The translations under genes and the position numbers were made by a program. Positions 1,873-63,990 of a stretch of 64,000 bases of DNA are shown here, in pieces. Position 1 is the stretch's first letter. Each line of letters opens with the position of its first letter. The notes under the pieces were generated by a model, which worked only from the letters and a program-made list of their open reading frames with translations, had not been told where the DNA came from and made no database searches. Source of the stretch: Cephalotus follicularis (Eukaryota; Streptophyta; Magnoliopsida; Oxalidales; Cephalotaceae); contig BDDD01001830.1 in NCBI GenBank assembly GCA_001972305.1, positions 33,033 to 97,032 on the forward strand. The letters are read 5' to 3'.

Positions 1873-2037
1873 CAGTCGGCTGGATTCTTCACCAGTCGGT
1901 TGTTCTGGGTAATCAGTACATGAGTAGTCAGCTGGTTCCTTCTACCAGTTGACTGTTCATCAGGTAGTCGGCTGTTATCCTTCACCATTCGACTGTTTCG
2001 GTTGGGCAGTCGGCTGTCTTCCTTCGATAGTCGACTG
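1873..2037. repeat. Short-palindrome array, CAGTCGRCTG class, 8 units
   Basis: Degenerate copies of the palindromic decamer CAGTCGACTG start at 1873, 1893, 1925, 1946, 1965, 1986, 2007 and 2028. Spacing is 20, 32, 21, 19, 21, 21 and 21 bp. Spacers are about 10-11 bp and not conserved. Open reading frames across the array only reflect the repeat. Confidence 0.88.
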
Positions 2038-2864
2038 TGCAGGGAAACCATTTACATGCAATCCAATATATATTACTCAAACGGATCATTGTAAGCATCT
2101 ATATATATATTCTCAAAACAGAATATCGTCAATCAGTCCTCAAAAGGTTCATAGAACACAACAGTAAACATGCATTTTATCCAGCAATTCAATACGAAAA
2201 TAAAACTCAGCATGCATGTACATGAACTCAAATGATTCTCAACAGTAAGCATAGCATGTGAAAAAACAGTAGTAACCATGGCATAACAACTAAACAACAT
2301 AGCTCACACGAGCAGGCAACCAATCTCAGGACATCCAGTAATCTTGAGCTTGAACTACAAACATAACTTCCCCTACCTTTTGATTCCAAGTTAGGAATCT
2401 GTAAGTCCACCTCTTTTAGTACGAACCATAGCTCCTCCAAGCTTCCTAGGTCCAGTTTGCAAGTCCAGGTTCGAGCTCCAAGTCGCAGTTCCTTTGGTTC
2501 CACAGAGGAGGTAAAGTTCTCCCTTTTCTCTCTCAAAATCTCTCGTATTTTCTCTTCACAACAGTGTTCTCTTTCCTTCGAAGATCACAAGTCCTTTCTG
2601 GCTTAGTGGCTCGGCGGATGAGGAGAAAAGAGAAGCTTTAAACAGCTGAAAAACTCTCCCTCCTTCATCAACCCAAAATGCATGCCCATGTGCCATTTTC
2701 TTCCCACTTTGGCAACTTCTATGCACTACTTGTCAAGAATTGTCACAGATTCAGTCTTGTCTTTGCTCCCTGCATGAGTCGCATGACTCCCAGGTGTCGT
2801 CTCATTTCTTCCCCATCAGTTGCTGCATGTGATCACTTCACATGTCTGCTGAAAGAGTGTCGTC
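2038..2864. other. Non-coding sequence between two arrays
   Basis: No gene is recognised. 2500-2680 is rich in TCTC/CTCTC words, like the transcribed leaders seen in other LTRs of this window (for example 13900-14000 and 48400-48500). That fits a decayed LTR read on the minus strand or in mixed orientation. Confidence 0.35.
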
Positions 2865-2988
2865 TAGTCGGCTGTTCTTACTCGACAGTCGGCTGGCAAC
2901 TCGAGGCCATCCAGTCAACTGTTTCCACAAACAGTCGGCTACCCCCATACCACTAACCAGTCAACTGTCCCTTCAAACCAGTCGGCCG
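2865..2988. repeat. Short-palindrome array, CAGTCGRCTG class, 6 units
   Basis: Decamers start at 2865, 2886, 2912, 2932, 2958 and 2979, spaced 21, 26, 20, 26 and 21 bp. The last unit is degenerate (CAGTCGGCCG). Alternating 21/26-bp spacing makes a pair period of about 46-47 bp. Confidence 0.8.
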
Positions 2989-3127
2989 GTTGGGCATATT
3001 CCTTCTGAAATTCAACCCATCACTTCGCATTATTTCAGGTGACATACCTCCACGTTCCTTAACATTACATAACTTAAAACAACATTATGTAAAAACGAAA
3101 ACGTCATCAAAGTCGGGAAATCAGTCA

Positions 3128-4469
3128 TGACACGCCCCGTTCCCGGGCACCCCAGCCCGAGGACGGCCGTGCCAGGTGGAAGGATCCCCCACCTGGATCC
3201 CTAAGCAAAACCACAACCAATAAAGGCTAACACTAAGGCCAGGGCAGGCGCTAAAGACACGCTGCCGAGGAGTGCCGCGCTCCCCAGGCCAAACGCTCCC
3301 AAGGCATAAAAACAAGAAATGCCCGAGCAGGAAGGAGGAAAGAAGGAAGGGTAAAACCATAAAATAACCCTTACTTAAACTATCCCCAAAGCTCACCGTT
3401 TAACTAAAGGAAACGCGCATAACACCCATTTAGGAAATGCACCGTTTAACTAAAGGGAACACACACAACACCCACTTAGCAAACGCACCATTTAACTAAA
3501 GGGAACAAACGCAACACCCACTGCCCAAACGCATCGTTCCAGTAAAGGAACATGCCAGGGCAGGGAGCCAGGGCAAAGAACGCAACACTATGTCTTGCCT
3601 GGGGTCCCGGGCAGGGGATGCAAACACAACATGACGTAACACAGGCCAGGACTGCGCCCCATCCTAAGACATGCCTTCCCAGGATGAACCATCCTCTGGC
3701 ATGTCCTCACTGGATGACAACCTAGGACATGTTCTCCCCGGGCATGACCCACACACTAAGGTTATGCCCGGGCACAAGAAATCAACAACACTTAACAAAA
3801 GGCTAAGCCTGAGATCAACACAAGGGCCCGGGGACAAACGCCAAGCATATGGGACAACCACTCGAGGTCCCACCATCACTCGAACTACACTTCAGAGATG
3901 AAATCTCACCCCGGCCAGGTACCCAGGGGATCCACCAAGGCTCACCCACCAAAACGTCTCCAGGGACCGAGCTGGTCCAAGGTCGGGAGGATGGGCAAAA
4001 CTAAGGAAAACTGCTCACTCCCACTTAACGCCTACGGCATGCCTGGGGACAACACCCTCTGCTTAGCCAGTGTGGCTAACCCCATCCTTCGGGGTGGGGC
4101 TGTGTTGTACCTGTGTGTGCGGCATAGGTAGGGCAGCAGGTAGCAGCGGACAGAAAGATTGAAGACTCGATTCGATTGCATGACCGTTTGGGCATCACAG
4201 AACTAATTGAGACATCGTGGCAAAAGGATTGATTTGTTATGTATTGTATTGTAACACTGTATTGAAGGATTGATGATGTATTGTAAAAGACTGTATTGTA
4301 AAAGCTTTGCATTGTACTGTTGGATGGATTTGTACTGTTTCTTCCGCAACTGATAAGTATTACAAAGTTTTAAGTTTTCCGCATTTTTATATTGCTAGTC
4401 CCGACCATTAGATTGTGTTTTGGATTGAGTGTAATGCCACGTGTCCGCCCTGTGGGCTCGGGTGTTACA
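3128..4469 (-). mobile_element. LTR of family B (gypsy-type), probably solo
   Basis: The + strand begins TGACACGCCCC and ends GGGTGTTACA, the expected TG...CA LTR ends; in element orientation the LTR starts TGTAACACCC. It is GC-richer than its surroundings and contains CCCGGGC and GGACGGCCGTGCC words. Related sequence recurs at 7518-8896 (opposite orientation) and 60452-62931 (same orientation). I do not see a clean TSD (AGTCA left, ACAGT right), so it may be rearranged. No gag or pol is attached. Confidence 0.65.
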
Positions 4470-4483: not shown

Positions 4484-7400
4484 TGTAACACCCCCGATTC
4501 GAAGGGAGTTGTCACGGGTCCTAATCCGAGACTATTCATAAATGATCTTATAACATTACTCAATTTTATTCTTTTTATCAAAATATTAAGTCATCTTTTA
4601 TTCAAATTGCGTGATGGTCTAAACATAACATTTATAATCTAAGACATTGTCTGAAAACTTTATTCATTATCTAAAACTTAAACATAGTCTGGAATGTTAA
4701 ACATAAACCAAAAGCTTAAACATAATTCTAAGTCATAAACTGAAAGGCATTACATAGTTCAAATAAGGGTCTAACATGACCATAAAAATAACTAAACATA
4801 ACCGAGACCATCTCCTAAGTTATCCTTATCATAAGTGACATCTCGCTCATCACACATTGCCCGGATGCTGTCCCAGAATACCTGCCGCATGGAAACAAAA
4901 ATGCGGGTGAGCAAACCTCAGTACGAATATAGAATCATAAAACATAAAACGATAATTTAAAGGAATAGAAAATACCTGAACCTTGAAATATCATACGACA
5001 CATATATAAAAATAATTATAAACAGTTCTATCAATTCAAAACCAATATCCGGATTCAAAACGTTAACAAATTTCAAAAACGATATCTGAAAGCAAAATCT
5101 GATTTTCAAAGCATAATCCAAGTTTCAATGCAAAATCGAAATCCCAAAACGATATTCAAAGCGATACTCAAAATCTCATTGTTCGAGTTAAAAAGGGTTT
5201 CAAAACAAAACATATCCGATTCCGATATCTCATAAAAGAGATCCAAAACATATAACAGAGACTTATCCGAATCCGAAATCTCATAATAGAGATCCAAAGT
5301 ACATATACATAAGTGCAAGGGGTTTGCAAGGCCCACATGCTCCGACGGAAAGACGTGTACGGCACTACACAATCAATCCCCAAAATCCGAATCTATAACA
5401 TATCCTAGGATCGACCCATACGCCTCTATCAGATAGAGGATCCATAAGTCCACCTCATGGGTCTTATTCAAACATAGAGATACGCCGTAGTCTAATCACA
5501 CCGCTACGGAAGTGTCACGTCCCCGTGCCAGGCCCGCGACGTGCCTATGGTACATCCCATAGGTGGGAAATATCTCTGTATATCCGAAGTAACATACTTC
5601 CTAATGTGAAAGTCATGTTCGTTTAACACACTTCGATAGTAGAAGTCATGTTCCTTATCAAATCCAAAATCCGTATACTTTCGTATGTGAAAGTCATACT
5701 TATTTTATAAAAACCGGTGATAATAAACTTTAGTAGTAAAACAGATTTTATAAAACATCCGAGGTCGCATAATATTTCATAAACATTCAAAGTCAAAACA
5801 TAAAGTCAGGAAATATTTATTTTCACAAAAATATCCTACCGACTTTATTTCAAAACATATCGAATTACGAAGCATAACGAAGTTCATAAAATCGAAGGGA
5901 CATATTCATAAAGTAAACTATATTTTTACCATAATAAAAAACAGTAGGCGGGTATCAAGGAATGAAACATCCGTACCTTAAGCGATCACAAAATAACTTT
6001 ACGAATCGATCAACAATTTAAAAGTCCCTCGGAGCACAAAAATCTAAGAAGATACAATACCATTCATACAAGGGTTCAAAATCACTTTCAAAACATAAAA
6101 CAGTAATTTAACAATGTTTAAAACATGCTCCAATTCATTACGAAACCAAACGGATGACAAAACTTAAAACCAGGAAATTTTCTGGACAATTCCAGTCGAC
6201 TGCATCAAGATCCAGTCGGCTACTCAAAGGTGGCAGTCGACTGTGTGGCATAGGCAGTCGACTACTCAACCTGGGTATGAATCCAGTCGACTGTGACAGG
6301 GGTCCAGTCGGCTGTGCAAGGCAAAATAGTCGGCTGTCTCACGAGGCAGTCGACTGTTCTGGGCGACAGAAAAGCAAAAACAAAGCAATTCAATTCCAAT
6401 TTTCTGTCAAAACTATATTACAACATTACCAGATGGTTACCAACATTTAAACAAGACTTATGTGACTTAACCGTGGCATTTAAACATACAGAATCAAAAA
6501 GTTTATGCAATGGGTGATCTTTCTTTAAAGAGAAGCAATTTCAATTCATTGCATGCATGCTTATATGATCAAATTTTCTGTATTTAATCATTATCCTTAA
6601 TCAAAACCAGTATGTATCATCTACTTAATGCATGTTGACAGGTTTTAGAAGCCATGGTTGCAGAAAATAAAAAAAAAAACAAAACATACTAGCAACCAAT
6701 CATGCAAAAGACTTTGTTAACAAAACTAAATGCTAAACCATAACAGTGGATGATAACAAACCTGATTTAATGAAGCAATGAAGACAAAAACAACTTCTAA
6801 TCATGCAGGTTCGGCTCAAGGAGAGAGATAAGCAATGGAGGCACAACAATGACTAATGGCATATATATATCACTTAGAAAAGGCAATTTAGGTCATGGTA
6901 ATGCAGAAAAGGAATCCAAAATCTGTTAGAATAGGGAAAGAGGCAAAATTTTCGGGATTGAGGGAGAGAAAGGGAAGGCAGAATCGGTTTGGGCAGCAAG
7001 AAGGAAGAATACGTGAGAGAGAGGGAGAGGGAGAGAAATAAAAGGGAAAAATATAAGCCTTTAACCAAAAATAAGGTTTTATTCCTTAATAAAACTATTT
7101 TGCCATTTATAATAAATAAAACTAATTTAAACTAATTTACAATACAATAAAATTAATTCAATTAATTTTACTTATTCACGTACATAGTCCAACCAATATT
7201 CAATAGCCCAAAATTAACGTCTTTAAGCCTAAAACGTAAAAGCCCAAATTAATATTCACAAACCATATCAATATTTTAAAAACTGATTTTAAAATACAAA
7301 ACAATAAGTTTTTATTTTTTTTTCATAATCCTTATTCCCTTAACTTATCAAAAGCCAAAGATGGTATTATTTAGCCTACGACATAAAAGCCTAAAACAAT

Positions 7401-7517
7401 TATATCATATAGTCCAAACAAAGAGTCCATAAATTAAAATAGGCCAACATAATATAACAAAGCGAAATAAAATCAAAAAAATCCGAAAATATACACGTGA
7501 ATGAACGGAGTATTACA
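4484..7517 (-). mobile_element. Solo LTR of family A, 3034 bp, TSD GTAGT
   Basis: On the + strand it runs from TGTAACACCCCC to GAGTATTACA. The five bases GTAGT occur both immediately before (4479-4483) and after (7518-7522), a perfect target-site duplication. No internal region or second LTR is present, so this is a solo LTR left by recombination. It is inserted in a family B sequence, whose text continues from CAGTACCAGTAGT to CCCCTGATAAATG across the insertion. Related copies lie at 13581-16401, 48114-53653 and 50594-53315. It carries a CAGTCGRCTG array at 6193-6356. Confidence 0.92.
6193..6356 (-). repeat. Short-palindrome array in LTR A, 8 units
   Basis: Decamers start at 6193, 6213, 6234, 6255, 6284, 6305, 6327 and 6347. 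Read in LTR orientation the spacings are 20, 22, 21, 29, 21, 21, 20, almost identical to the array at 14759 (20, 22, 21, 29, 21, 21, 21). The array lies about 1.16-1.32 kb from the LTR start. Spacers have drifted from the other A copies. Confidence 0.92.
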
Positions 7518-13580: not shown

Positions 13581-13739
13581 TGTAATACCCTGCTTGCCTG
13601 TACGTATTTTTCTTACGGGTTTTATCTGTTTCGTTTAAGTATTTGTCTGTTTTATGTTGGGTTTATGTTTTTGGGCTGACTGATACCAGCCTTAATTTTG
13701 GGCATGTTGGTACGGATATTATGTTGGGTAAATTTAGTT

Positions 13740-13740
13740 A

Positions 13741-13790
<50 letters not shown>
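13740..13790. repeat. ATT trinucleotide microsatellite
   Basis: About 17 uninterrupted TTA/ATT repeats. Open frames here encode only homopolymer runs (Leu, Ile or Asn) and are not genes. Confidence 0.97.
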
Positions 13791-13791
<1 letters not shown>

Positions 13792-14758
13792 AAACCACTT
13801 TTATCAAATACTTAATTACCATATTATATTTACAATTGATTTTATTTAATATTGTATTTTCAAAAATTGCTTTTAAAACAAAATCTTCTATTTTATTACT
13901 TTCCTTCTCCCTCTCAAACTCTCTCTCCCGTATCCCACTCTTTCCTATCTCCCTCTCCCTCACAACTCTATCTCTTTCCTTCTTTTCTCCCTGAAAATCA
14001 GCCATTTTTCCTTATCCAGCAGATTGGTTTTTCCCTTTTTGCTATCCTTTCCCGTTTGGTCTCTTTTTGCTATATATGTATGCCAAAGTCATTGTGCCAG
14101 CCGTCTCTCTCTCTTTGTTGTGGTTGCTGCCGAATCTGCCATTAGAGAGTCATTGTGTTTTTGGTGTTCTTGCTTCATCAATCAGGTTAGTTTCTTCATG
14201 GTTTCAATGTAGGAATCGTTTTTGCAATGTTTGGTATAGTTGACAGGCTTTGAACTCTTGATATCTTCCTCTCGTTTTTCTTTTTGATCAGCCACTATGT
14301 CCTCCGAAGTGGTGTTTCTGCAACTATTTTTGACATCCAACGGGTTGGTTTTCTATGTTGTTATGTCTTGGTGATTGGTCTTGGATTGTTGCCATCAAAA
14401 TTTTTGTACATTAGTTGCTAGAGTTGGTTTTGTTGTGGTTTTGGCATTCTTGATGTTCTGTCAATTGTCTCTGAGTTGGTTAGCAAGCCTATTGTCATCC
14501 TATATGTGTTGTGTAATCTGGTTTTAGGAATTGACAATGGTAATTTGACAGAAAAATTATTTGAAATTAGTATACAATGGTTTGCTCCTCTTACTCACAA
14601 CTCATTAATCGTTGTCAATGTATCTAATTCGAATTCTATGTGGTAACATTTTTTTATATGCCATGCAAGGTTGTTTGTAATGTTGGTAATCTTCTAGTGT
14701 CGAAAAATCCGAGTCTTGGCTGCTAAATTGCATTGAATTACTGTTCTGTCACCCAGAA

Positions 14759-14923
14759 CAGTCGACTGCCCATATGAACAGTCAACTGTCTTGTGTTGAG
14801 TAGTCGGCTGGACCCCTGATTCAGTCGACTGCTTGCATGTCCAGGTTGAGTAGTCGACTGACCCTGTTGTGTAGTCGACTGCCACCCCTGTTTAGTCGAC
14901 TGGATTCTTGAAACAGTCGGCTG
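14759..14923 (+). repeat. Short-palindrome array in LTR A, 8 units
   Basis: Decamers start at 14759, 14779, 14801, 14822, 14851, 14872, 14893 and 14914, spaced 20, 22, 21, 29, 21, 21 and 21 bp. Several are perfect CAGTCGACTG or TAGTCGACTG. The offset from the LTR start is 1178-1342 bp, the same as in the other A copies. Confidence 0.93.
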
Positions 14924-16401
14924 GTTTGTCCTGTAAACTTCTGTTTTCATCCATTTATTCTTCCGATGATCCGGGTCTATTTTAAACATCATTATGATTC
15001 TGTTTTATGTTCAAAATAAATTTTAGACCCTTATTTGAACATTGTTATGTTGAATAGATTATTGTGCTACGTGAAGCAAATTAAGTTTACCGGATTTTCG
15101 TAAGTTAGTCTGTGATCGTATAAGGTACGAATTTTTGTTCCTTGATAAACTCTTACTGATTCAGTTCTGTTTTGAGAATAAATACAGATTCTTTATTTTG
15201 GTTTTATCTGAAAGGAAGCTGTTTTGTTTTAATGAGATGAACGGATAATTATTTCTTTTTGAACATCTGGTTTATTCGAAATAAATTCAGTTTTATGAAT
15301 ATGTCCCTTTTCAGATTATGAACTCTGTTTTGTTGGATTTTGAAATGAAGTCAGTTAATACTTTATTGAATATATTTTCTGGCTTAATGGATTCAGCTGT
15401 GCTATGTTTACGAAATGCTATGCAAATGTCCCTTTATTGTGAAAATAAAAGAGTTGCATTTTGATTATGAAAGTATATGTTATGTGAAACTATGTCGTTT
15501 GTAAACGATTTATGATTATGTTTTGGGAAAACCTTTCTATGTATTTTAAATTGATTTGATGAAATCAAGTTTTTGAAATGGTGAAATACTGAGCTTTTAT
15601 AACCACCTATGGGGGTACCATAGGCATGTTGTGGGCCTGGCACGGGGGTATGACACTTTCCGTAACGGTGTGATTTGTTTACGGCGTCTCTCTGGGATAT
15701 CCTTTGATAGGATTTGTGATAGTGGCGTATGGATCGATCCTAGTTATATGTTTTGGGATATGGGGATTGTATGTGTAGTGCCGTACACTGCAATTCCATT
15801 TTGCAATGTGGGTGTCGCGAACCCCTTGCTACTATGTGTTTCTGATATGTTATGGGTTTTGGTGCTCAGTTATGGATCCTATGTTTTGGAAAGGTACACT
15901 TTATGGTTTCAAAGTTATGAACTTGATTTATATGTTTTGCCGTGGGCATTTACAAAGTATGTTTAAACTATTTTATTGCTTAAGATTGCAGTTTTAAGGT
16001 ACTTTTGGAAATCTTCCTGCTTTAAAATATCATTTACTGTTTTACATTCTATATCCGTACAAAGGTTTGCTCAGCCACGTTTTTGTTTCCATGCGGCAGG
16101 TTATCAGGAGCGACGAGGCCATGTGTGATGAGAGTGACTCCCATATGTTTGAGGATCATCTAGGAGCTGATCCTTCGTGTTTATGTGGTCATAGTGGACC
16201 TGTTTAATAAACAATATGTTAATTTCAGTTATGACTTTTGGGTTATGAATAAGTTTTAGTTTATGATCAGTTTCAGTATGTTTTTGATTATGCTTTAAAC
16301 CATCACGCTTTTAATAAAGATGAACTTTTCTAGTATGTTAAGTTATGTTAAGATTTTGTATTTTGCACCTGTGGCGACTCCCACAGCTCGGGGGTGTTAC
16401 A

Positions 16402-17494: not shown

Positions 17495-18149
17495 TGAATT
17501 GTAGTTTCTAAAAATTATCTAAACTTTTCACAATTTAGAACAATGAACAACAAAATCAACTAATAGCAATTTAATCAACAATAAAAAGAGAGAGAGTTAA
17601 AGAGATTGCAAACACTAGTTTAGAGTGGTTCGGCGTAACTCTTGCCTACGTCCACTTTTCCCAAGGATCTCCTTGAGTTTCCACTAGTTCTCCGAATACA
17701 ATTCTGGGTGCTATTCGGTACACCTTTGTGATTGACCTCAATCACTTACAAATCTCTTGGGTTCACTCCCCAATTTCTCTTAGGGTTCACTCCCCTATTA
17801 CAATCAAGATAGATGAAGTAGTGTTTTGATCTAAACCTCTCACAAGGTTGGATTTTACAAGATAAGTTTGCTCAATGTAATTTGCAACAAAGATGGGCTA
17901 AGATATGACAATGAAAGCTTTTGAGATAAGCTTTTAATTTGAATGCTTGTTGTGTATTTCTCTCGAATGATCTTTGTGCTTGTATTTCTCTTGTGTTGCT
18001 CTCTTTTGATGTTTAGAGTGCTAGAATGTTGCTTGAGATAGCTAGAATGAATATTCAACTTGAATGCTTGAACACTTGTGCAAGAACTCCAATTTGCCTT
18101 ATATACTTGTGTTTCCAACGGATCTATTTTTAAAGGTCTGTTACAAATC

Positions 18150-18512
18150 CAGTCGGCTGGATTTATACGGCAGTCAGCTAGATTTGATGGCGCGTATTTT
18201 GAATATAGCCGTTGGTGATGGACAGTCGGCTGCTTCCTCTGGGCAGTCGGCTGGTGGTCCTGGCAGTCGACTGGTGCTCTGTTCCAGTCGGCTGTTGGTG
18301 CTAGAAATGGAGTTACAAAATCCACTGCCTGATATTGCACATATGTGGACAGTCGGCTGGATTCCATGGCAGTCGACTGCTCCCCTGTGGCAGTCGGCTG
18401 GATCATGTGTTCCTGCAGTTTTTGGACTTGTTTGAAGAACCAGGCGGCTACTCAACCCATGGCAGTCGACTACTCATCCTTGGCAGTCGGCTGGATTGCT
18501 TGGCAGTCGGCT
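18150..18512 (-). repeat. Short-palindrome array in copia LTR E1 (left copy), 13 units
   Basis: Units start at 18150, 18171, 18223, 18244, 18264, 18285, 18350, 18370, 18391, 18441, 18462, 18483 and 18503. Spacings are 21, 52, 21, 20, 21, 65, 20, 21, 50, 21, 21 and 20 bp. Eight units are exact CAGTCGGCTG, two are exact CAGTCGACTG, and three are degenerate. CAGTCGGCTG contains the reverse complement of GCCGAC. The right LTR carries a homologous array differing by one unit. Confidence 0.95.
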
Positions 18513-18677
18513 GGATTGCCCTGTACCTGCAGAAATAGCCTTTTGCACACTTTGGACACAAGATCAAGTGAGTATATGAAGTTTTAGCTCAGAGAATTAT
18601 GCATACAGGTGTTATATGTTTGTTAATCATCAAAATAACATATGTTAATGCAATTAACGGGGTGGCAAAGGCCAACA

Positions 18678-19502
18678 ATCTCCCCCTTTTTGATGATTGA
18701 CAAAACATGCGTATTTTGCATAAATTCTTGACAAATTAATCGATTTTGACTTCAAAGTTCAATTTTATCAATTGTATCTTATCCAATGCATTTGATAGCA
18801 TAAAGCAACAACGTATGCACCTTTAACCACTTAGCATTCTACAAATGCAATGCAATCTTAATATTATGCTACATTCCAAATGCAAGTGCAATCTCAATTC
18901 AAGATTCCAAACATTTATAACCATTATGCAATTTAACATATATCTCCCCAAACATTTTTAACATTTACAATGCAATGTAACAACTATGCTCCCCCTTTTT
19001 GTAAACATAATGCAACTTCAATAATATTAACAATATGCAATTTCAATAACATATCTCCCCAAATGCAAATGCTACTTTCAACATATTTATGCAACTTCTC
19101 CAAACATTGTTATTTCTCTCCCCCATTATGCACTGCAAAATGTATTTCTCCCCCTTTTTGTCAAACAACAAAAAGAGTAACGGAAGCTCCCCCTCAATCA
19201 CAGCATTGATTGAAGAGCTCCCCCTCAACATATGCATCCAATTTAAATGAAAGTAAATATCACTTAAGTACAAACAATAACAAAATCCACATTCATTCAA
19301 AGAAGGCATTGAACATAATTTTATTAATTGAAAAGAGGCAATTACATAAACAACTTCAATTTGTTTTACAAACCATAAGTTAACTATTATGGACTAATAG
19401 CAACTTTGGTATATGAGCTAATTTATGTCATAGAGTTAAAAACTCAATGTTTAATGCATGATGATCTTTGAAAAACATTTTTCAACCCAATTCACACAAC
19501 AA
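18678..19502 (-). other. E1 region between pol and 3' LTR, rich in CTCCCC words
   Basis: There is no open frame of note. Repeated CTCCCC(C)T and ATGCAA words are scattered through it, purine-rich on the minus (element) strand. A similar stretch follows the pol-side ORF of element E2 at 31440-32126. This suggests a family-typical 3' untranslated spacer of a SIRE-like copia element. Confidence 0.5.
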
Positions 19503-20335
19503 TTAGCAATTCATTTCAATTTCACACAAACCTAATTCCAATAATGGTTTGGTGAATATGTCCGCGACTTGTTCTTGGGTCGGGACGAAAACTAATTCAA
19601 TATCACCCTTTTCAATGTGATCTTTTATGAAGTGATATCTTATGTCAATGTGCTTAGTTCTAGAGTGATGAACGAGGTTTTTCCCTAAGCATATTGCACT
19701 AGTGTTATCACACCTAATTGGCACTTTTACAAAGTTAAACCCATAGTCAAGGAGTTGTTGCTTCATCCACATGATTTGAGCGCAACAACTGCCTGCGACA
19801 ATATATTCGGCTTCGGTAGTCGAAAGAGCTACCGAATTTTGTTTCTTACTAAACCAAGAAATGAGCATATTGCCTAAGAATTGACATGTGCCACTTGTGC
19901 TCTTTCTATCCACTTTATATCCTCCGAAATCGGCATCGGAGTAAGTGTGTAAGTCAAAGGAAGATTTCCTAGGATACCATAGTCCTAGGGACGGTGTGTA
20001 TGCTAAATACTTAAAGATGCGTTTTACGGCATGCAAATGGGATTCTTTTGGACATGCTTGAAATCTAGCACACAAGCATACACTAAATAAGATGTCATGC
20101 CTACTTGCCGTTAAGTAAAGCAACGATCCTATCATACTTCTATACAATTTTTGATCGATGGACTTACCTTGTTCATCCTTATCAAGCTTTGTAGTTGTGC
20201 TCATGGGTGTCTTGCTCTTTTTGGCATTCTCCATCCCGAATCTTTTGAGTAAGTCTTTGACATACTTTGATTGGTTGATGAAGATTCCTTCCTCCAATTG
20301 TTTGACTTGAAGTCCAAGGAAGTAGTTGAGCTCGA
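19503..20335 (-). pseudogene. Copia pol fragment: end of reverse transcriptase and RNase H
   Basis: An open minus-strand frame of 264 codons (20297-19503), readable a little further upstream to about 20333, matches the C-terminal end of Ty1/copia polyproteins. Recognisable features in order are an SLLYLTASRHDI segment, the RNase H motif YSDADFGG followed by DRKSTSG, STTEAEYI, KHIDIRYHF, and the C-terminal VADIFTKPL. It ends at a normal stop codon, so the C terminus is complete. The 5' end is abruptly joined at about 20336 to an LTR copy, so integrase, most of RT, protease and gag are missing. Together with the two LTR copies it forms rearranged element E1. It cannot encode a functional polyprotein; it may still be transcribed from the adjacent LTR. 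Confidence 0.93.
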
Positions 20336-20850
20336 TTTGATGGCGCGTATTTTGAATATAGCCGTTGGTGATGGACAGTCGGCTGCTTCCTCTGGGCAGT
20401 CGGCTGGTGGTCCTGGCAGTCGACTGGTGCTCTGTTCCAGTCGGCTGTTGGTGCTAGAAATGGAGTTACAAAATCCACTGCCTGATATTGCACATATGTG
20501 GACAGTCGGCTGGATTCCATGGCAGTCGACTGGATCCCCTAGCAGTCGACTGCTCCCTTGTGGCAATCGGCTGGATCATGTGTTCCTGCAGTTTCTGGAC
20601 TTGTTTGAAGAACCAGGCGGCTACGCAACCCATGGCAGTCGACTACTCATCCTTGGCAGTCGGCTGGATTGCTTGGCAGTCGGCTGGATTGCCCTGTACC
20701 TGCAGAAATAGCCTTTTGCACACTTTGGACACAAGATCAAGTGAGTATATGAAGTTGTAGCTCAGATAATTATGCATACAGGTGTTATATGTTTGTTAAT
20801 CATCAAAATAACATATGTTAATGCAATTAACGGGGTGGCAAAGGCCAACA
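20336..20850 (-). mobile_element. Copia element E1, right (5') LTR, truncated
   Basis: This direct repeat of 18181-18677 is highly similar and ends at the same GGCCAACA. It lacks the LTR part equivalent to 17452-18180 and any PBS, being fused directly to pol. No TSD pairs with the left end (TTGAT left, ACAAT right), so E1 is probably a recombination product. Confidence 0.85.
20376..20686 (-). repeat. Short-palindrome array in copia LTR E1 (right copy), 12 units
   Basis: Units start at 20376, 20397, 20417, 20438, 20503, 20523, 20543, 20564, 20614, 20636, 20657 and 20677. Compared with the left LTR it has one extra 20-bp unit (start 20523: CAGTCGACTG plus GATCCCCTAG), while the flanking units align one to one. 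Confidence 0.95.
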
Positions 20851-21690
20851 ACAATAAACCAACAAAGGACATTTAAGACATGAGAGAACAAGAGTTCTCC
20901 AACTTGACAAAGGAGACCATTACAATTGCCCAGTATGAAAGCATGTTTATGGAATTGTCTTGGTTGGCTCCGTATCTTGTTCAAGGAGAGACAAGGAAAG
21001 CAAAGAAGTTTCTACAGGGTTTAAAGATGGAGTTGATGACTCAGTTGGTCATACAGGACTTGAGGACTATGGTCGATGTTGCAGTTAGGGCCAGACAGTT
21101 AGGGGACGTATCAGAGGAGTTCAAAGTGCTGAGGATCTAGACAAGCATTGAACCAGCACAGTTCTTATGGTAAAGTGACTAGAGTGGTTATCCTAGTCGA
21201 AAGTCGGGGAAGATCGATAGTAGTGGCTCACCGAGTGGATCACCGATTGGGTTTCCAAAGCTTCTATAGTGACTTCCAGATGGGTTCAGAAGGGCATGGG
21301 AGTCAGTCCCAACCCTCGAGCAGGATAGATCAGACACGAAATTCCCATCAAGGGAATAGATCAGGGACATCGAGTCAGGGACAATCCAAGTTTTCAGAGG
21401 CAGGGAATCAGTCCACACCAGTACCATGTATGCATTGTCACACCTCTGACAACTATCGCTAGTACTTGGGGAGTTGCATGCATTGTGGAAAGATTGGACA
21501 CATGGCTAGGGACTACCCACCTGGAATAGACACCAGGGGACCATTTCAAACAGGGTCATAATATCGGCCACCTAAGATGCAGTATTAGACTCCACCAGCA
21601 CGGACTGCTAGTGCGCCAAGTTCTTCCATAGCGACAAGACATGCTAGAGGGAAGCAGTCAATAGGAGGTTATGCTCACTTGTACAATGCG
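20851..21690 (+). pseudogene. Ty3/gypsy gag remnant with zinc knuckle
   Basis: The frame at 20880-21140 shows the typical plant gypsy gag pattern (tITiAQYES...F..L, then TRKAKKFLQGL and a basic region). Downstream, after stops and frame changes, a zinc knuckle CMHCGKIGHMARDY is visible near 21478-21520; the last Cys of the CCHC box is replaced by Tyr. A Gln/Ser-rich linker lies between. The same gag order is seen at 53825-55290. The left side is cut by element E1 and the right side by the solo LTR at 21691. It is non-functional, with several stop codons. Confidence 0.85.
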
Positions 21691-23705
21691 TGTAATGACT
21701 AGAAAATTTTCATTTAAGTTATTGTTTATGAAATGTACTTGCTCTAAGTGTGGTGTGTTCTAGAGTATGATATTTTTCATGGTACATTGTGTTGCACGTT
21801 TGGTATCATATGTTGTGATGAAAGCGTCAACTGAAAGGAAGAAAGCGTCGATAATCTAGAGTAAAGTGTCGATAGTATTGTTTAAAGTGTTGACGGTTAA
21901 CCTTAAGCATCGAATGGATGCATCAAAGCGTCGACTGAATTCTTGGACAAATTGACTTAAGCGCCGACAGTTTGTTAAAGCGATAACGGTTAAATTGCAA
22001 AGCAGCGACACTTGAACCCCTTCTAATGGAGCTTTAAACCAGTGCGTTTTCATATATGGAAACACCTTTAAGCGGCAACGCTTCGATTCAAAGCGTCTGC
22101 GCTTTGCCTTAAGCGGTGACTCTTTACCCCAAGCGCCAACGCTTTAACCTGCAAACCAGTTGAAGAATATTGGTATAAAACGTAAGCGACGACGCTTTCC
22201 TTTCAAGTGTCGACGCTTTCCTTCCAAGCGTCGACGCTTTGTCTGTTGATCAGTTGAGGAGATCTAGATTTTTGTCTCTTTATACATTAATTATTGTTAT
22301 TTAAGGGACATGTGGCAAGCTAGGAAGTGAGGACATCAGATATTTTGATGTTGGTATGATGAGAAATGACAAGTGTCATCAATTTGGAGAGAGAGAGAGA
22401 GTGTGTGTGTTAGCACATGGGTAATTTAAGCACATGGCAATAGGTGGCTTATTCAGACTATATATGTGTGTAGTTGTGAGCTGAATTCAGTTAGTTTATG
22501 CGGAGTATCGCTGAAATTAATTGAAGTGAAGAGAAAGAAGAAAGAGATTGAATCAAAGTAAGGAAAATTCTACTCTTTTATGCTAAAGTTCTTTCTCTGT
22601 TATTTTCTAGAATTATGTAGTAGATTGTTTTAATCATAATTTACTCGTTTTGTGATTAAAATTCAAATGGTTTATTGTTCTGAAAACTGATGTGTTCTAC
22701 AACTGTTATGTTTTATGTATTTCGAATTTTTGTCAAATTCTTGACGAAAATCTGTGTTTAAAATTACTACTCATGTTCTACTGTCATATGGAACCTGCAA
22801 CTTCAAAAATTCATTGCAGCTTCGTTTATCAATGAAAATTTATGATCTTTATCATTCTGAAATCGTTAAGATGTCTACTATAACTCTACTGTTTTACATT
22901 TTCTCTAAAAATGAATGTTTTTATATGTACTTTTAGTTTTACAAATGTTGTACGAATTTGATTTTTTGAATGCTTTGAGCTGATCACTCAAAGTATTGAG
23001 AAATGATTTTATGAAATGAGAAAAGGTAATAAACTAAGATGAAAAACTCTTGGATTGCGATCCAAGAGGGATTAATGTTATGAGCGGAGAATGCTCTCGG
23101 TCATGCATGTGATGTAAGGATAGTAATCGGGGAGTGCACAATGCCCTGGTGAAGCAAAGGTTCAATTGGGTTCTTTAAGTTTATATAAGCCCTCAGTATT
23201 TATGAAATATTCTGCTTCATGAGATATGAACAAAAAGAATGAATGTGATGAAATGTTTATTTTGAAACCCTTATTGGCTATTTAAGCTCATTCCTTTCAA
23301 TATTTTGTTTTTAAATAAAATTTTCCAGGGAATGGATGAACAAAGAAATTTCGAGCTTTTGAGGAAATTCGTGAAAGAAGTTTTGAAGAAATTATGTTAT
23401 ATAATAACTATTTTTATGATGTAATAAGTTTACTTTTCCGTTGCTTATTTGTAATATGACAGATGATGTATAAATGTATTGGCACTAAAATTGTTTGTTA
23501 TGGTGCATAGTTTTCAAAAGAAAGAGTTGATGTTTTGAAGTTTAATGTTGAAGGTTGTAAGTTATATTTGAGATTATGAGAAGTTTGATAAATGTTAGCA
23601 ATTAGTAAGATTGTTAAAGATGGTTAAGGTTCACACCCCATGTAACGCACTGAATCCTCGTTGCTTGCTTTGAGCATAAAGTGAACTCGGATCGAGGGCG
23701 TTACA
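21691..23705 (+). mobile_element. Solo LTR, 2015 bp, TSD ATGCG
   Basis: It runs from TGTAATGACTAG to GAGGGCGTTACA. ATGCG occurs at 21686-21690 and 23706-23710. No internal region is present. It is inserted in the gypsy remnant that resumes at 23711. Near its 5' end it carries an AAGCGTCGACGCTT-class array. Confidence 0.94.
21826..22239 (+). repeat. Short-palindrome array, AAGCGTCGACGCTT class
   Basis: Degenerate cores (GTCGAC and variants) start at 21826, 21847, 21868, 21889, 21909 and 21930, then less regularly at about 21963, 21982 and 22004. After a gap they resume at 22074, 22095, 22115, 22135, 22188, 22209 and 22230. Within runs the spacing is 20-22 bp. The best-preserved units at the right end show the 14-bp perfect palindrome AAGCGTCGACGCTT. 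Confidence 0.88.
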
Positions 23706-35177: not shown

Positions 35178-35241
35178 AACACTTTTTGATATAATAATAT
35201 GAGTTGCAATCTTTGAATTTTATCTCTGCTGGTATAAAGAC

Positions 35242-39490: not shown

Positions 39491-39563
39491 TCAGGTTTCT
39501 ACAAATATAGACAATTGATTAGGTAATAATAGAAAAGCTATTTCCATCTTTTCACGCCAAACC

Positions 39564-42354: not shown

Positions 42355-42639
42355 GTCGACGCCTTACCAAAGGCATTGACGTGTTTTCTGGAAAAACATG
42401 AACAAGACATCGATGTAAGAACAGAGCATCAATGCGTTTCACAAGAACATTTTAAAAAGGCGTCGACGTCCAAAAAATAACATCGACGCGTTTCACAAAG
42501 TATGATCCAGACATCGACGTCTAACACGAATGTCGACGTCTTTACTGGGAATTTGACATGACATCGACGTCTTACCAAAGACATCGACGTCTTTACTGGG
42601 AATTTGACATGACATCGACGTCTTACCAAAGACATCGAT
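42355..42639 (-). repeat. Short-palindrome array, GACATCGACGTC class, paired units
   Basis: Cores start at 42355, 42375, 42409, 42428, 42462, 42482, 42513, 42532, 42563, 42583, 42614 and 42634. Spacing alternates 19-20 bp with 31-34 bp, so pairs repeat about every 51-54 bp. The last two pairs are nearly identical. Confidence 0.92.
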
Positions 42640-42918
42640 GTCTTTAGCCCCCTGGACATTTTCTGAATTTCGAAAAATGCTGAATTCAATGGTTTAGACT
42701 TTGGAATACCATTCTGGCATTCCAAAATGCACTATGCATGTTCCAAACTTAATTCTAAACACATTTAAACAACATTCCCAGCATTAAAACACAATGAAAT
42801 CCAATTTCATGCAATTTTCATTAACGCACTTAGAAAATTTAGTTTGATCACCAATGATTAAATTATTAATCAGTACATCATCTAAGGCATACATATTCAA
42901 TTAAGGATGATGTGGGAC

Positions 42919-42930: not shown

Positions 42931-43677
42931 CTGATAGAATCTGATATACCGAGTCCGGTAGCAAAATGGACTTAGGAGTGAAGGGTGTAGAATAAAACTT
43001 TAAATATAAAATCGTGCAACGGAAGAACACCCAATAAAACATAAACCATTCCATTTTTGCACGTCCACAGACCACATGGATCACCATAACATCAACAGAA
43101 TTGAATTAGTGTCACCATTGCAAACAATTGTGACACACAAGCATGGCACAAGGAAGAAGGACCAAGAATATATACCAGTGGGTGTTGGCTCCTTCGTTCT
43201 TTGCCGCTACAAGCTTGAGTAGATTCCCTTTGATCTTCTCCAAGTCTCAGGAACACCAAGTATTCCAAACAGCAAAATCAAAGTGCTTGAACTCACTCTC
43301 TTTCTCACTTAGCTTAGAGAAGGAGTATTGATTATGACTAATGAAGTCAATAATCAATCTACCCTAGATAAGCCTTTGCTTGGTGTTTATCAGATGAAGG
43401 AACACACACTTGCAGAGAAGAATTCGAGGCAATTGCCCAGCAAAACTGTCTCATCTCACTTTTTTCATTTTTTGCAGAAATGCTCTAATACCAGCCACAA
43501 GTTCTCTCTCCCAATCTCCCATTTACTTAGGATCATGGCCTTCACTCCCTGGGAGTCCGAAGCCATGATTCCCACGTTTCCATAACGTGTACAATCAAGA
43601 GAAACTGGCTAAGGATGTGAGAGAAGTAGTGCCCACGAAGTGAGATCGTGCACTGGTTGCACATTCTCCTCAAAGAC

Positions 43678-43801
43678 GTCGACTCCTTCCAAAAGACGTC
43701 GATGCCGATGCAACGTGGCACTAAAGCACATCGATGCTTTCTAAAAGACATCGACGTCTTTTCCAGAGAAAAGCATCAATGTCTTTCTAAAAGACATCGA
43801 C
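43678..43801 (-). repeat. Short-palindrome array in the right LTR of the nested element
   Basis: Cores start at 43678, 43698, 43730, 43750, 43775 and 43796, spaced 20, 32, 20, 25 and 21 bp. In the left LTR copy homology ends at the first palindrome (near 41449-41455). Confidence 0.88.
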
Positions 43802-44293
43802 GCCTTTTGGCCAGTGAAGCATAAAGAGTCTAACTCTTTTAGTGGTTTCATGTATCCTTCGAATATTGGTTAAGTAAGATCAAACATATGTGTTTCCACA
43901 AAATACGCACCCCGTATTTGCCCTAGTGTCCAACACAGATGGTAGTGAGAGAATCCATCCCCCGATTCCATGAGCAGGCAACATACGCGCAAGTCTATCC
44001 GGTTCACTAATGCCCATAAAGTGAACCTATGACTTGGAACAAGTTGGACATAAGGAGTAAGGTAACCAGTCTCACAGCCTCCATGCCAGGTATCCAACCT
44101 TATGTCAGGGCATCACTAGTATAAGTAGATAATAATTAAACTACTTTGATTATGTGATAAAATACAAGTGATATAGACATAACAAATTTAGCACGCATCA
44201 TATATACATAAGAATAAGATTGTTCTATACATGGTAAGATATAATATGACAACCCATCTAATGGCTTGTCGGGTCACTATATCTAACACTGCA

Positions 44294-49275: not shown

Positions 49276-49482
49276 TAGTCAGCTGTTCTTCTGGACAGTC
49301 GGCTGTCTAGCCTCGAGTAGTTGGCTTTCTGTATGATTAGTCTGCTGCTTTGCCTTGCACAGTTGACTGGACCTCTGTTACAGTCGCCTGACTGCAGTCC
49401 AGTTTGTGTAGTCAGCTAGCCTTGTTGGATAGTCGACTGCCAAGCTTCCAACAGTCGGCTGGAACTCTGTAACAATCGGCTA
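49276..49482 (+). repeat. Short-palindrome array in LTR A, 10 units
   Basis: Units start at 49276, 49296, 49318, 49338, 49360, 49381, 49409, 49430, 49452 and 49473, spaced 20, 22, 20, 22, 21, 28, 21, 22 and 21 bp. The wider gap of 28 bp corresponds to the 29-bp gap in two other A copies; two more units precede it. Cores are more degenerate here. Confidence 0.88.
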
Positions 49483-50593: not shown

Positions 50594-53315
50594 TGTAACA
50601 CCCCCGGACGGCGGGAGTCGTCACAGGTCATAATACATAACCTATCATAACATAGCATAATTTATCTGAACATAAACATTTCTTTATTAGCCAAAACGTG
50701 GTGGTCATAGCATTACTGAAAAACTGTTCAGAATATAAAACTTAACATATGTCAAAAGTCAAATACTGAAACATAAAACAAATTAGCATATTGTTCATGA
50801 CCACTAAAAATCAAAGACACATAAGGATCACACTCCTAGGGATCCATGACATAAGGTGGCCAACTCTCATTCACACATTCCCCCGCTGATCCTGATAACC
50901 TACCGCATGGAAAACAAAAACGCGGCTGAGCAAACCTCAGTACAGATAAGGAAAGAAAAAGCAGTAAACGATAAGTTTAAAAGTAGTAAGATTTCAATAA
51001 AATTCATAACAGAAATCTTAAGCAATTAAAACAGTTTAATCATATTCGAATTTCCGTAAAATACCAATTTTTATATCTTTCGAAATATTTACGAAACATC
51101 TCAAAAACATCATTTCATGATTGATAAAGTCATACTGAGCCACATACATATCACATTTCATAACATATATTGTCAAGGGAGGCGCTAATTCCACATGCCC
51201 ATTAGAATTGCAGTGTACGACACTGCACAAGTCAATTCTCAAATATCATTCCATATCACATATCCATAAAGTAGAATCGATTTATACGTCTCTATCATAC
51301 ATAGTGGATCCATAAATCCACCTCATGGGATTTATTCATAACATTCAGAGATGCTGTAGACTAATCACACCGCTACGGAAGTGTCATGTCCCCGTGCCAG
51401 GCCTACGACATGACTATGGTACGCCCCATAGGTGGGTACAATACTCAGTATTCAATCATTTAGAAAACATCGATTTATCAAAATCAATTAAAAACACATA
51501 GATATGCTTTCACAACATATTTGAAAGTCGTTCACAATGATATCATAATATACATTTCATAGTCAAAACATCAACTCATTTATTTTTCGTGATAAAGAGA
51601 TGATCATTTCATAACATATCGTAACGTATCATAACATAAAGTCAGGAACATTTAAATTCATAAAATTTCAAAAACCAACTTCATTTCTGAAATATAATTC
51701 AGTTCATAAAATGAAGGAACATAGCATAAAAAAAACTGATTTCAGTTCGATAAAACCAGATAGCCAAGGAATGATAGAAATCCGTACCTTATGCGTTCAC
51801 AAAAGCACTTACGGATAGATTGTCAATTCAGCTCCCCTTTGAAGCACAACAATCTAAAAGACACCCAAAACCATTCATATAAGGGTCTAAGAAACATTAT
51901 AGACATTAAACAGACTTATTACAGTGTTTAGAAAAGACCCAGATTGATTCAGAGAACAAACGAATCAAAACAGTTGAAAACAGCCGACTGTCACAGAGCT
52001 CCAGTCGACTGTCGAAGCTTGGCAGCCGACTACTCAATAAGGCCAGCCGACTACTCAACAGAAACAGTCGACTGCTTTCATATGGAAGCCAACTACTCAA
52101 CTAAACCAGCTGACTGTTCATAAAAAGTAGCCGACTGCTCAACCAAACCAGCTGAGAATGTCTATAAAAAAACAACCGACAGAAACACAACATTTTCAAT
52201 ACAAAAACTGCCTAAACATGAATGACATCATACCAGAGACATATGAACATATACGTGAGACATTATATGATGTTTAGATGACACAAAAATATAGATTGAC
52301 ATGGAATAGCATATTGGCAGTGGTTAACTTCAAGAGAAGAACCTTTAAACATATGCATATGTACAAGTCCAAATTTTTGCCCATAATCATTAACAGATAT
52401 TTAAAACCAGATTATGACATGTCCATGGTGTTTAAAACATACTGACAAACTTAGGAATACAATGACAGAACATATATATGTAGGAATCAAAACCAAGAGA
52501 CTCTAACAACCTATTGAGCACAACTGAATTTATAACAACATAGAAGTAACCATCATAGCAAGATTCACTAACCTCTAATGGTATTAAGAACCCAAAAACA
52601 GCAGGAAGAATACCACTGAACAATTGTTAACCGGCTGTGTAACAGGAACAAAGGAGAAGACAACACAACTCAAAGCTTGCCAAGAAAAGTATAACCAAAG
52701 GACAACAAAAGACACCAACAAACCTGATATTGATGAAGAACGAATCAACACAAGAACACAACAATCCCAGCTTGCAGTTTCGGCAGTGAAAGGCAGAGGA
52801 ATTTTGGATGACATACACACAATGACAGGGGCATTCTTAAACGGGAAAAACAAGAGAGAATTGAGGGAAAGATAAGGAAATAAAGGGGACAAAATCAGAT
52901 TAATAAGGAAGAAGGAGATTGTAAACGTGTGGAATTGATGAGGGGAGGAGAGAGTTTCGCGAGAAGAGATGAGAAGAAAGGAAAGAAAGGAAGAAGAAAG
53001 AAAAAGAAAAAGAAAGAAATAAAATAAAATAAATGAAATGAAATAAATTTTATAATAAGAGAAGTGTTTTAATAATTTTAAAAGTTATAAAATAAAATAA
53101 AGTTTTGATAAAATAAAAAATGCATATAACATAGGCCCAACCCAACATTGCATTAACATATCCAAAAATTCAGGCTGGTATCAATCAACCCAAATCACAT
53201 AGGCCCAAAATACAGGGCAACCGGACTTTAAAACAAAACAATTTAAAAAGCCTGAAAACAAACACATATATATAAAAGTCCGCAAAACACATATACGAAC
53301 AAGCAGGGTATTACA
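50594..53315 (-). mobile_element. Nested solo LTR of family A, 2722 bp
   Basis: Runs on the + strand from TGTAACACCCCCGG to GGGTATTACA inside the LTR at 48114. Flanks are CTGCG (50589-50593) and ATGCG (53316-53320), a 4 of 5 TSD; the uninterrupted relative reads CATGCGGCAGG at 16091. It is an A family member inserted into another A family member in reverse, and carries an array at 51981-52158. Confidence 0.92.
51981..52158 (-). repeat. Short-palindrome array with exact 21-bp period, 9 units
   Basis: Units start at 51981, 52002, 52023, 52044, 52065, 52086, 52107, 52128 and 52149, every interval exactly 21 bp. Cores vary among CAGCCGACTG, CAGTCGACTG, CAGCTGACTG and weaker forms; the spacers often read CTCAACNAAAC. 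Position in the LTR matches the other A arrays. Confidence 0.95.
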
Positions 53316-53663
53316 ATGCGGCAGGTTATCAGGAGCACCGGGGGAAAGTGTGATTGAGAGATCTTCACCATATGTCAAGGATCCTCTAGGAGTGTGATCC
53401 TACTATGCTTTTTGTTAGGATTAGTCCTAGAACAATGAGTTACTTAATGGTTTATGTTTTCAATATTTGACTTTTGGAACATGTTTAAGTTTTAGATTAT
53501 GTCAAGTTTTCAGTTATAGTTTCAAATATTGCTATGTTATGACCGCCACGTATTTTTGCTAATAAAGTTATGCATATGTTCAGTTAAGATATGTTATGTT
53601 AAGTTCTGTTAAGTTATGACCTGTAATGGCTCTCGCCGTTCGGGGGTGTTACATAGTATTGAG

Positions 53664-62931: not shown

Positions 62932-63092
62932 GTAAATTTCAATTAATGTATATTGTACCCATGATAAATAAAATATGTATTTAATTGAGATTAATTGTCC
63001 AAGTGTTATATTTTTATGGTTGTTCTTTAGGTTGTTGGTTTAAATGCAAGGGTTGAGTTGGAAGTGTGTTGTGGTGTGGATAGTGGGAGGAA

Positions 63093-63218
63093 CAGCTGAC
63101 TGTTTGTGAAAACAGCCGACTGGTTGTTTTGGGCAGGCCACAGCCGACTATCGCAGGGAAACAGTCGACTGGGAAGTTAAGCGGTGGCAGTCGACTGCCA
63201 GTTAAAAACAGTCGACTG
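63093..63218 (+). repeat. Short-palindrome array, CAGTCGACTG class, 6 units
   Basis: Units start at 63093, 63113, 63141, 63162, 63188 and 63209, spaced 20, 28, 21, 26 and 21 bp. Cores include CAGCTGACTG, CAGCCGACTG and perfect CAGTCGACTG. Confidence 0.9.
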
Positions 63219-63939
63219 GCAGAGTCCGAACAGGAAGGCTACGTGTTACTTGAAAATAGAGTGTGGTGTGTTGTAAGTTGGACAGGTGTGGGACGGCGGA
63301 TTTCACAGGGTTAAGTGGCATAGACGTGTCATAGACTGATTATACTGATGTTTAATGTCTCTGCATGACCTGTAACCTGCAATGAAACAAAAACAGTGAG
63401 TAATGTGAGAGAGAAGGAAAATGGTGAAAACTTGAGTTAAAGGAATCAGGTGGTTCTGATACGAATTCCTTTATATCAACTGTCCCATGGATGTTTTCAG
63501 ATATTGAAAATGTTGAAAGGTGAGAAGTTATCTTTCGTGTGTGTGCATGATGAACTGAAGTTCAAGTGGAGTTAAACTTGGAATAGAAGCTGGGAAGTTG
63601 GTAAGCTTCTGTTGTTCTTGAATTCAGTTACTGTTATGGTTGTTCAGTAGTATACGTACTGATTTTGTTATGTATACCTACTATTAACATGCGATCGTAG
63701 CTTGAATTGCTGGTTGAATTGGTTGAAAGTGGAAGTTAGAACTTAAAGAGAAGAATCATTTCAACTGATTCTGGGATAGCGTTTGAGGTAGGTAGAAGGA
63801 ATTTATGACATCATTCTGATATATATAGCATGCTTTTCGTGTCATAATAGTCTATATCTGTTTGCATGTTGATTGAAATTGAATTGGAAGTTGTTATAGT
63901 TCATGCTCTATTTCTGTTAATAACGAACTTGGACTTTAA

Positions 63940-63990
63940 CAGTCGACTGTCGTGATTAACAGTCGACTGCTTAATGTAAACAGCTGACTG
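63940..63990 (+). repeat. Short-palindrome array at window end, at least 3 units
   Basis: Units start at 63940, 63960 and 63981 (20 and 21 bp apart): two perfect CAGTCGACTG and one CAGCTGACTG. It probably continues past the window. Confidence 0.88.

Follow-up and report, generated by a model that had tools for sequence, protein, structure and literature searches.

Regularly spaced arrays of TCGA-core near-palindromes in long terminal repeats of Cephalotus follicularis retrotransposons

Near-palindromic boxes form arrays in long terminal repeats

The window analysed here is a 64,000-nucleotide stretch of Cephalotus follicularis contig BDDD01001830.1 that is dense in long terminal repeat (LTR) retrotransposons, and the subject of this study is a set of short TCGA-core near-palindromes (boxes) that lie in rows within it. 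Boxes were located with three 14-bp weight matrices that are blind to spacing, and an array was defined as at least four sites with gaps of at most 110 bp. The scan found 15 arrays in the window (1871 to 63329; Table 1), in agreement with an initial annotation that had counted over a dozen, and 58 arrays across the 30 sequences scanned. These sequences were the window itself, 10-kb loci drawn at random (20) and, of the 15 loci retrieved by pattern, the nine that remained after six had been left out for overlap. Sampled loci, which come from the same genome (assembly of 1.577 Gb), carry L-numbers (L001, L014, L031 etc.).

The boxes fall into three classes (CAG, ACG and GCG), and among 447 sites the centre is TCGA in 287, TCGG/CCGA in 97 and CCGG in 2. 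The TCGA centre described initially is thus the commonest one, and the palindromes themselves are mostly imperfect, with 3.73 of 5 arm positions paired; information content falls off outside the box core. An LTR setting was directly shown for eight of the 15 window arrays (those starting at 6191, 14757, 18148, 20374, 21843, 30743, 35238 and 51979). The array at 42351-42643 lies outside an LTR, and ACG and GCG boxes are mixed inside single arrays, which corrects the proposed division into three classes sharing an LTR location.

Of the 32 arrays for which the LTR strand was assigned, 11 had a TATA-like box within 250 bp downstream and one had it upstream. Asymmetric boxes all point in the same direction in 16 of the 24 arrays having at least three of them; the 14 CAG arrays in this count all behave in this way. 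Asymmetric boxes lean to the LTR sense strand (89 sense-only versus 10 antisense-only sites in 18 arrays), also in 13 of 15 arrays when second LTRs are excluded, a hand tally that was then tested, that covers few families and that carries no weight in the verdict. LTR strands (for box orientation and TATA counts) and family labels (for the period test below) were partly our own assignments, and the clustering of arrays, which merged nested neighbours, was used only for class mixing and for distances to LTR starts.

Box spacing is quantised and far exceeds chance

In the 58 arrays, 252 of the distances from one box to the next measured 19-22 bp, and no distance fell at 9-17, 35-39 or 54-57 bp (distances below 9 bp are suppressed by the array caller). 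This bears out the proposed period of 20-22 bp; spacers are free, as was also proposed. After removal of second copies, 210 of 331 intervals fell at 19-22 bp, with a mean of 20.66 within that class, and every array group (28/28) contained at least one such interval.

The 20 random loci alone yielded 301 sites and 126 intervals of 19-22 bp, with 32 arrays spread over 15 of the loci, while five dinucleotide shuffles of the same loci yielded 45-57 sites, no array and no interval of 19-22 bp. In the whole genome, exact GTCGAC pairs numbered 5,024 at 11-18 bp, 174,792 at 19-22 bp, 29,272 at 23-30 bp, 10,082 at 31-38 bp and 84,691 at 40-43 bp, versus 742, 1,783, 682, 443 and 822 in a backwards-read control; the control itself rises at 19-22 bp, perhaps through decayed boxes. 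Exact CAGTCGACTG pairs separated by 6-14 bp occurred 38,234 times genome-wide versus 137 times in the control. Of the 64 six-base palindromes, GTCGAC was the most over-represented at 20-22 bp when 264 kb were examined (score 25, against 8.7 for the runner-up), a ranking based on a mean of two pairs per distance. A lack of excess at this spacing across the genome, one of the two outcomes named at the outset as refuting, was looked for and not found.

Intervals outside 19-22 bp were informative about the nature of the step. For 95 family-unique intervals of this kind the best period among 8-26 bp was 10.4 bp, with a mean cosine of 0.29 at 10.35 bp (family bootstrap 0.14-0.43) and of -0.06 at 21 bp. 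Gaps other than 21 bp hence track the DNA helix period and not 21, although the effect is modest. The rule is loose, because the odd gaps (26-34, 47-53 and 68-76 bp) are centred somewhat below odd numbers of helical turns and the frequent gaps of 27-29 bp are out of phase. A protein on one face of the helix, one of the mechanisms named in the initial annotation, fits these data best, and the 27-29 bp gaps weaken a strict same-face rule.

In CAG arrays, gaps of 27-29 bp often contain related inner sequences, e.g. CTGATGCGTG or AACACGCATCAG (also at L014 1500-1585), which are perhaps a second binding site.

Arrays occur in Sirevirus-type and Ty3/gypsy elements

Elements A (18.1-20.9 kb) and B (30.6-35.9 kb), both on the minus strand, carry several AGGGGGAG tracts (five in A, three in B), and in each the terminal octamer is followed by AT and the TG of the LTR (AGGGGGAGATTGTTG at 18687 in A and 31446 in B, minus strand). 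Multiple polypurine octamers AGGGGGAG before the 3′ LTR, the last joined by AT/TG, are marks of Sireviruses (Bousios et al. 2010, PMC2829016). A and B are accordingly classed as putative Sirevirus-type (Ty1/copia) elements by their octamers and by the octamer-AT/TG-LTR junction; coding evidence is thin, the match in A being a partial RVT_2 of 19.9 bits, below the curated cut-off. The sole exact TATCAGAGC (the Sirevirus primer-binding site) in the window lies in element C at 42927, and the 5′ LTRs of A and B are both truncated.

All four octamer-LTR junctions in the sequences examined are followed by an array, the one at L017 coming from the random sample and the other three having been found via arrays. 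The array starts 138-174 bp into the LTR at three of these junctions (162 bp in A, 138 bp in B) and 119 bp into it at the fourth. The LTRs hold 11 (A), 18 (B), 12 (L005) and 17 (L017) boxes, above the minimum of eight that defines published Sirevirus repeated motif (RM) boxes, with imperfect symmetry. A TATA box follows the last box at 44 bp in A, 97 bp in B and 43 bp in L005, and in L017 only under a looser pattern.

Element C (window 40700-43805) has an LTR pair 96.8% alike with about 1.5 kb between the LTRs, and a primer-binding site (TGGTATCAGAGC, minus strand, 42930) directly precedes its array. No AGGGGGAG octamer was found near element C.

Ty3/gypsy LTRs are a second location of arrays. 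In L031 a pair of 2.9-kb LTRs (TGTAACGCC...GTGTGACA), both with arrays, surrounds an internal region with an integrase zinc domain (54 bits), a Tf2-1-like SH3 domain (75 bits) and an integrase core match (24.9 bits, below the cut-off of 32.6). L014 is similar to L031 at the integrase and the end of pol (76% over 219 residues, 58% over 167 residues); there the coding similarity leads to a purine tract and then to an LTR starting TGTAAGAACC, inside which CAGTCGACTG boxes lie at about 170-250 bp and again at about 1.3 kb. Exact 5-bp target duplications flank array-bearing LTRs of 1.7-3.0 kb at L016, L018, L020 and L023 and three in the window. The scan for such duplications returned eight, versus a mean of 1.0 at 20 control offsets; about one chance match is thus expected, and the pair at 39731-46616 was left unused. 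These solo LTR copies have no coding part and are assigned to gypsy, provisionally, by their LTR ends and similarity.

The two superfamilies share the CAGTCGACTG class with no similarity detected outside the boxes. The comparison set three CAG arrays of Sirevirus type (L001 assigned because it resembles L005) against 11 of gypsy type (L014 assigned by coding evidence, the rest by their similarity or kind of LTR). When the boxes were left unmasked, 27 of the 33 Sirevirus-gypsy pairs matched. With boxes masked, none of the 33 matched at 1e-3, whereas 24 of 55 gypsy-gypsy pairs and all three Sirevirus pairs did, so the likeness between superfamilies is limited to the boxes.

Cores outlast spacers between families, and whole units come and go

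We compared substitutions in cores, spacers and flanks between related arrays. L009 and L013 were left out because they cover the same stretches as L008 and L014, and the second copy of each LTR pair was removed from the deeper bands. In 18 pairs of diverged families (below 80% identity), change affected 261 of 1623 core positions (16.1%), 656 of 2385 spacer positions (27.5%) and 632 of 2836 flank positions. Core change was below spacer change in all 18 pairs, and one further pair at 80-88% agrees; the Fisher value of 1e-17 for the diverged pairs is nominal, as pairs share members. Spacers as conserved as cores, the outcome named at the start as one that would reduce the arrays to plain minisatellites, were thus not found between diverged families.

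In contrast, in seven pairs of young copies (at least 88% identity here; 90% in the indel comparison below) change in cores was no lower than in spacers (34/640 core, 41/1147 spacer and 67/1672 flank positions; p 0.09), with core below spacer in three of the seven. CpG-type changes made up 20 of the 34 core changes, and two L031 pairs contributed 21 of the 34. Cores kept between diverged families but not between young copies are what is expected if inserted copies decay while selection acts on the replicating lineage. The suggestion that selection or some mechanism acts on the box and the distance is supported by this pattern, together with the quantised spacing and the position of TATA-like boxes.

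Arrays also change by whole units, gained or lost between boxes. The 3′ LTR of element A lacks exactly one 20-bp unit present in the 5′ LTR, the bounding boxes being identical and the neighbouring spacers different, and L001 and L005 show a 20-bp length difference. Slippage with a fixed step, another mechanism raised initially, is therefore a contributor, through step-preserving slippage or recombination. Boxes serving as the homology for unit gain and loss would explain part of the regular step, but neither the odd gaps nor the sharing between superfamilies.

These length changes are also what decayed minisatellites would show, in which a 21-bp unit is multiplied by slippage and boxes survive as slippage homology, with no need for function. 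The 51-bp unit of element C, which contains two boxes and is repeated 2.2 times at 98% (42533-42646), and the one-way orientation of asymmetric boxes in many arrays, as a copied unit would give, fit this explanation too. However, neighbouring whole units are not alike as in a minisatellite: the likeness of adjacent versus non-adjacent spacers was 0.142 versus 0.204 in CAG and 0.301 versus 0.341 in ACG arrays, with GCG arrays slightly opposite (0.410 versus 0.369) and so showing some adjacent likeness. Moreover, gaps other than 21 bp miss multiples of 21, box and step are common to unrelated superfamilies, and cores are kept in diverged families. We therefore regard decayed minisatellites as an unlikely account of the arrays as a whole.

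Candidate readers of the boxes

The hexamer RYCGAC is present in 351 of the 447 boxes (GTCGAC 157, ATCGAC 102, GCCGAC 85 and ACCGAC 7), and the stricter RCCGAC in 20.6% of the 447. A PLACE-derived table lists RYCGAC as CBFHV and GTCGAC as CRTDREHVCBF2, both CRT/DRE motifs (PMC9138379; also PMC4482647). DREB1D sites were reported as typical of LTRs of 75 plants, and DREB/CBF motifs are cited in stress-activated maize elements (PMC11656987). With RYCGAC as the hexamer in common, an AP2/ERF protein of the CBF/DREB type is the best candidate reader, a possible identification that we hold with some doubt. The presence of boxes in Ty3/gypsy LTRs as well makes a host factor a more likely reader than an element protein.

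No dependence between positions favouring RYCGAC was found within the boxes; relative to column shuffles, GTCGAC was slightly depleted and TTGAC enriched. Covariation between arms was likewise absent from the 447 boxes (3.727 of 5 positions paired versus 3.739 in shuffles), and the outer CAG pairs were T..A in no case. This absence would be expected for half-sites read by a protein and counts against hairpins as the feature that is kept.

Hairpins in RNA or DNA would operate otherwise, palindromes in LTR transcripts feeding or escaping small-RNA silencing, as proposed for maize Sireviruses, whose palindromes are small-RNA hotspots (PMC10760457, PMC5311732). The element A array, the single array folded, does fold somewhat better as RNA than its shuffled versions (z -2.35, with 2 of 100 matching it). 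Nevertheless, the uncompensated arm changes and the fixed step of 19-22 bp, which hairpins leave unexplained, make this reading improbable.

Relation to known systems

The arrays in Sirevirus LTRs correspond to the RM boxes of Sireviruses (PMC2829016), and the statement that no named element type matches was accordingly overturned: position, copy number and symmetry agree. As in that account, many copies of a symmetric CpG-bearing motif with divergent flanks lie in the LTR upstream of the TATA box, and the Vitis box CGGTCGACCG shares the GTCGAC centre (PMC2829016). Stress-related sites were recovered there from PLACE, and the 2010 paper, which named the RM boxes, found no common binding factor (PMC2829016). 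The arrays differ in that the published core is CGG-CCG in 12 of 13 boxes and here is TCGA, so they are classed as an RM-box variant; the published comparison concerns Ty1/copia only, whereas gypsy LTRs (L014, L031) are involved here, and the part of PMC2829016 available to us gives no rule of box spacing comparable to the 19-22 bp step.

Maize Sirevirus palindromes likewise cluster in the regulatory part of the LTR and are highly variable in sequence, but the maize motif is CACCGGACNNNGTCCGGTG (PMC10760457, PMC5311732); a maize Copia palindrome also occurs in Helitrons, a precedent for spread beyond Sireviruses (PMC10760457). The plastic 5′ CpG island of Del (Ty3/gypsy) elements similarly consists of variable sequence rich in CpG, located in the 5′ half of long gypsy LTRs, but the accessible text mentions no palindromes, and eudicot Del elements have no island (PMC4029996).

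Dense motif arrays in non-coding DNA that change by gain and loss of tandem repeats are also known as VANC targets in VANDAL transposons (PMC5735166), and the present arrays might by analogy be targeted by an anti-silencing protein that the elements themselves encode. VANC motifs form dense same-direction tandem-repeat arrays (PMC5735166), and the boxes here are dense and lean one way in many arrays. However, VANDALs are DNA transposons with an element-encoded reader and an unrelated motif (YAGTATTAY), neither TCGA-cored nor, in the text available, described as palindromic or assigned a spacing (PMC5735166), and sharing between copia and gypsy would require action across families. We consider this explanation very improbable.

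Literature matching the exact 10-mer CAGTCGACTG concerned, among the matches listed, other subjects, and no second description beyond the Sirevirus paper surfaced among the matches listed for palindromes, tandem repeats, Tekay, U3 enhancers or helical phasing. Occurrence in gypsy elements, a box class shared by two superfamilies and strict spacing thus go beyond the published accounts found, although Bousios et al. 2016 may report spacing.

A model for the phased arrays

The observation of phased box arrays is confirmed, and its initial interpretation is partly supported. On balance, we favour the view that the arrays serve LTR retrotransposons as cis-regulatory modules (enhancers), made of rows of putative binding sites for a host protein. 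A sequence-specific DNA-binding protein of the host would occupy the box rows upstream of the LTR TATA box; with boxes about two helical turns apart, neighbouring proteins would lie on one face and cooperate. Whole units may be gained or lost through recombination or template slippage between boxes, and selection on the replicating lineage would maintain boxes and spacing, inserted copies decaying afterwards. The results above show the location, abundance and spacing of the arrays, the conservation of cores over spacers between families, changes in unit size and sharing between superfamilies; protein binding and the protein's identity, enhancer activity and cooperativity are inferred.

Several results weigh against such modules. 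The frequent gaps of 27-29 bp are out of helical phase, TATA-like boxes accompany a minority of arrays (11/32), and core conservation is partly favoured by the motif-based calling of cores. In deep pairs, one-base length shifts affected 45 of 123 box-to-box intervals versus 23 of 145 flank segments, a comparison that still included three pairs of overlapping loci; that intervals stay within 19-22 bp despite these shifts suggests a bound on drift. With respect to the reader, Vitis CBFs required CCGAC (PMC4196112), which is absent from GTCGAC and ATCGAC, and the ATCGAT boxes (22 sites) lack RYCGAC. RYCGAC was also no commoner than in within-array column shuffles (0.785 versus 0.782), so nothing marks this hexamer as the unit selected.

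Going further, Sireviruses and Ty3/gypsy elements may have converged on one enhancer grammar of RYCGAC near-palindromes at two-turn helix steps, which we put forward tentatively. If so, much of the retrotransposon load, with its 174,792 exact pairs at 19-22 bp, would respond to a single regulator, or family of factors, of the host, and arrays with such phasing would be a general device of plant LTRs and not a peculiarity of Sireviruses. Given the spacing rule, the shared hexamer and the sharing between two superfamilies, the question left by the RM boxes becomes one that can be tested, namely whether a single family of host factors binds cooperatively in phase with the helix and jointly controls many retrotransposons of a large genome. 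Phased boxes also provide a simple signature to search for in other plants.

Other features of the window

Table 1. Box arrays and associated retrotransposon features in the window
Feature	Position	Strand	Remark
CAG-class array, 7 sites	1871..2039		Box scan
CAG-class array, 6 sites	2863..2990		Possible LTR start 1,479 bp off, minus strand
Solo LTR (TGTAACACC..TTACA, 5-bp target duplication GTAGT)	4484..7517	+	Contains array 6191-6358
CAG-class array, 8 sites	6191..6358		Box scan
Solo LTR (target duplication CTTAG)	13581..16401	-	Contains array 14757-14925
CAG-class array, 8 sites	14757..14925		Box scan
TATA box, element A 3′ LTR	18099..18110 (approximate)	-	44 bp past last box
CAG-class array, 11 sites, element A 3′ LTR (putative Sirevirus-type)	18148..18515	-	Box scan
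Five AGGGGGAG polypurine octamers, element A	18676..19225 (19225, 19194, 19155, 18996, 18687)	-	Last abuts LTR via AT/TG
Open frame, copia reverse transcriptase end (RVT_2, 19.9 bits, below cut-off 31.6) fused to LTR sequence	19503..20453	-	
Truncated 5′ LTR, element A, with array 20374-20688 (11 sites)	20329..20851	-	95.0% versus 3′ LTR
Solo LTR (target duplication CGCAT) with array 21843-22239 (10 sites, mostly GCG class)	21691..23705	-	
ACG/GCG array, 18 sites, element B 3′ LTR (putative Sirevirus-type)	30743..31298	-	TATA box 97 bp past last box
Three AGGGGGAG octamers upstream of element B 3′ LTR	31809, 31754, 31446	-	
Truncated 5′ LTR, element B, with array 35238-35813 (18 sites)	35181..35931	-	98.9% versus 3′ LTR
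GCG-class array, 4 sites	39560..39657		Box scan
ACG-class array, 11 sites, element C	42351..42643	-	Downstream of primer-binding site (42930), outside LTR
GCG-class array, 6 sites	43674..43805	-	At or beyond edge of element C 5′ LTR
CAG-class array, 5 sites	49294..49463		Resembles other gypsy-type arrays
Solo-LTR-like copy (flanks CTGCG/ATGCG, one base different) with array 51979-52139 (6 sites)	50594..53316	+	
CAG-class array, 6 sites	63111..63329		Box scan

The solo-LTR-like copy at 50594-53316 (plus strand) sits inside a minus-strand copy of its own family (window 49400-53653). The stretch at 44513-45949 is GC-rich (50%) and holds long open frames that overlap, as well as repeats of 25 bp at 45862-45949. 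Plus-strand gypsy remains, including an RVT_1 match of 68 bits at 56146-56631, occupy 53801-56631 and have no assigned array.

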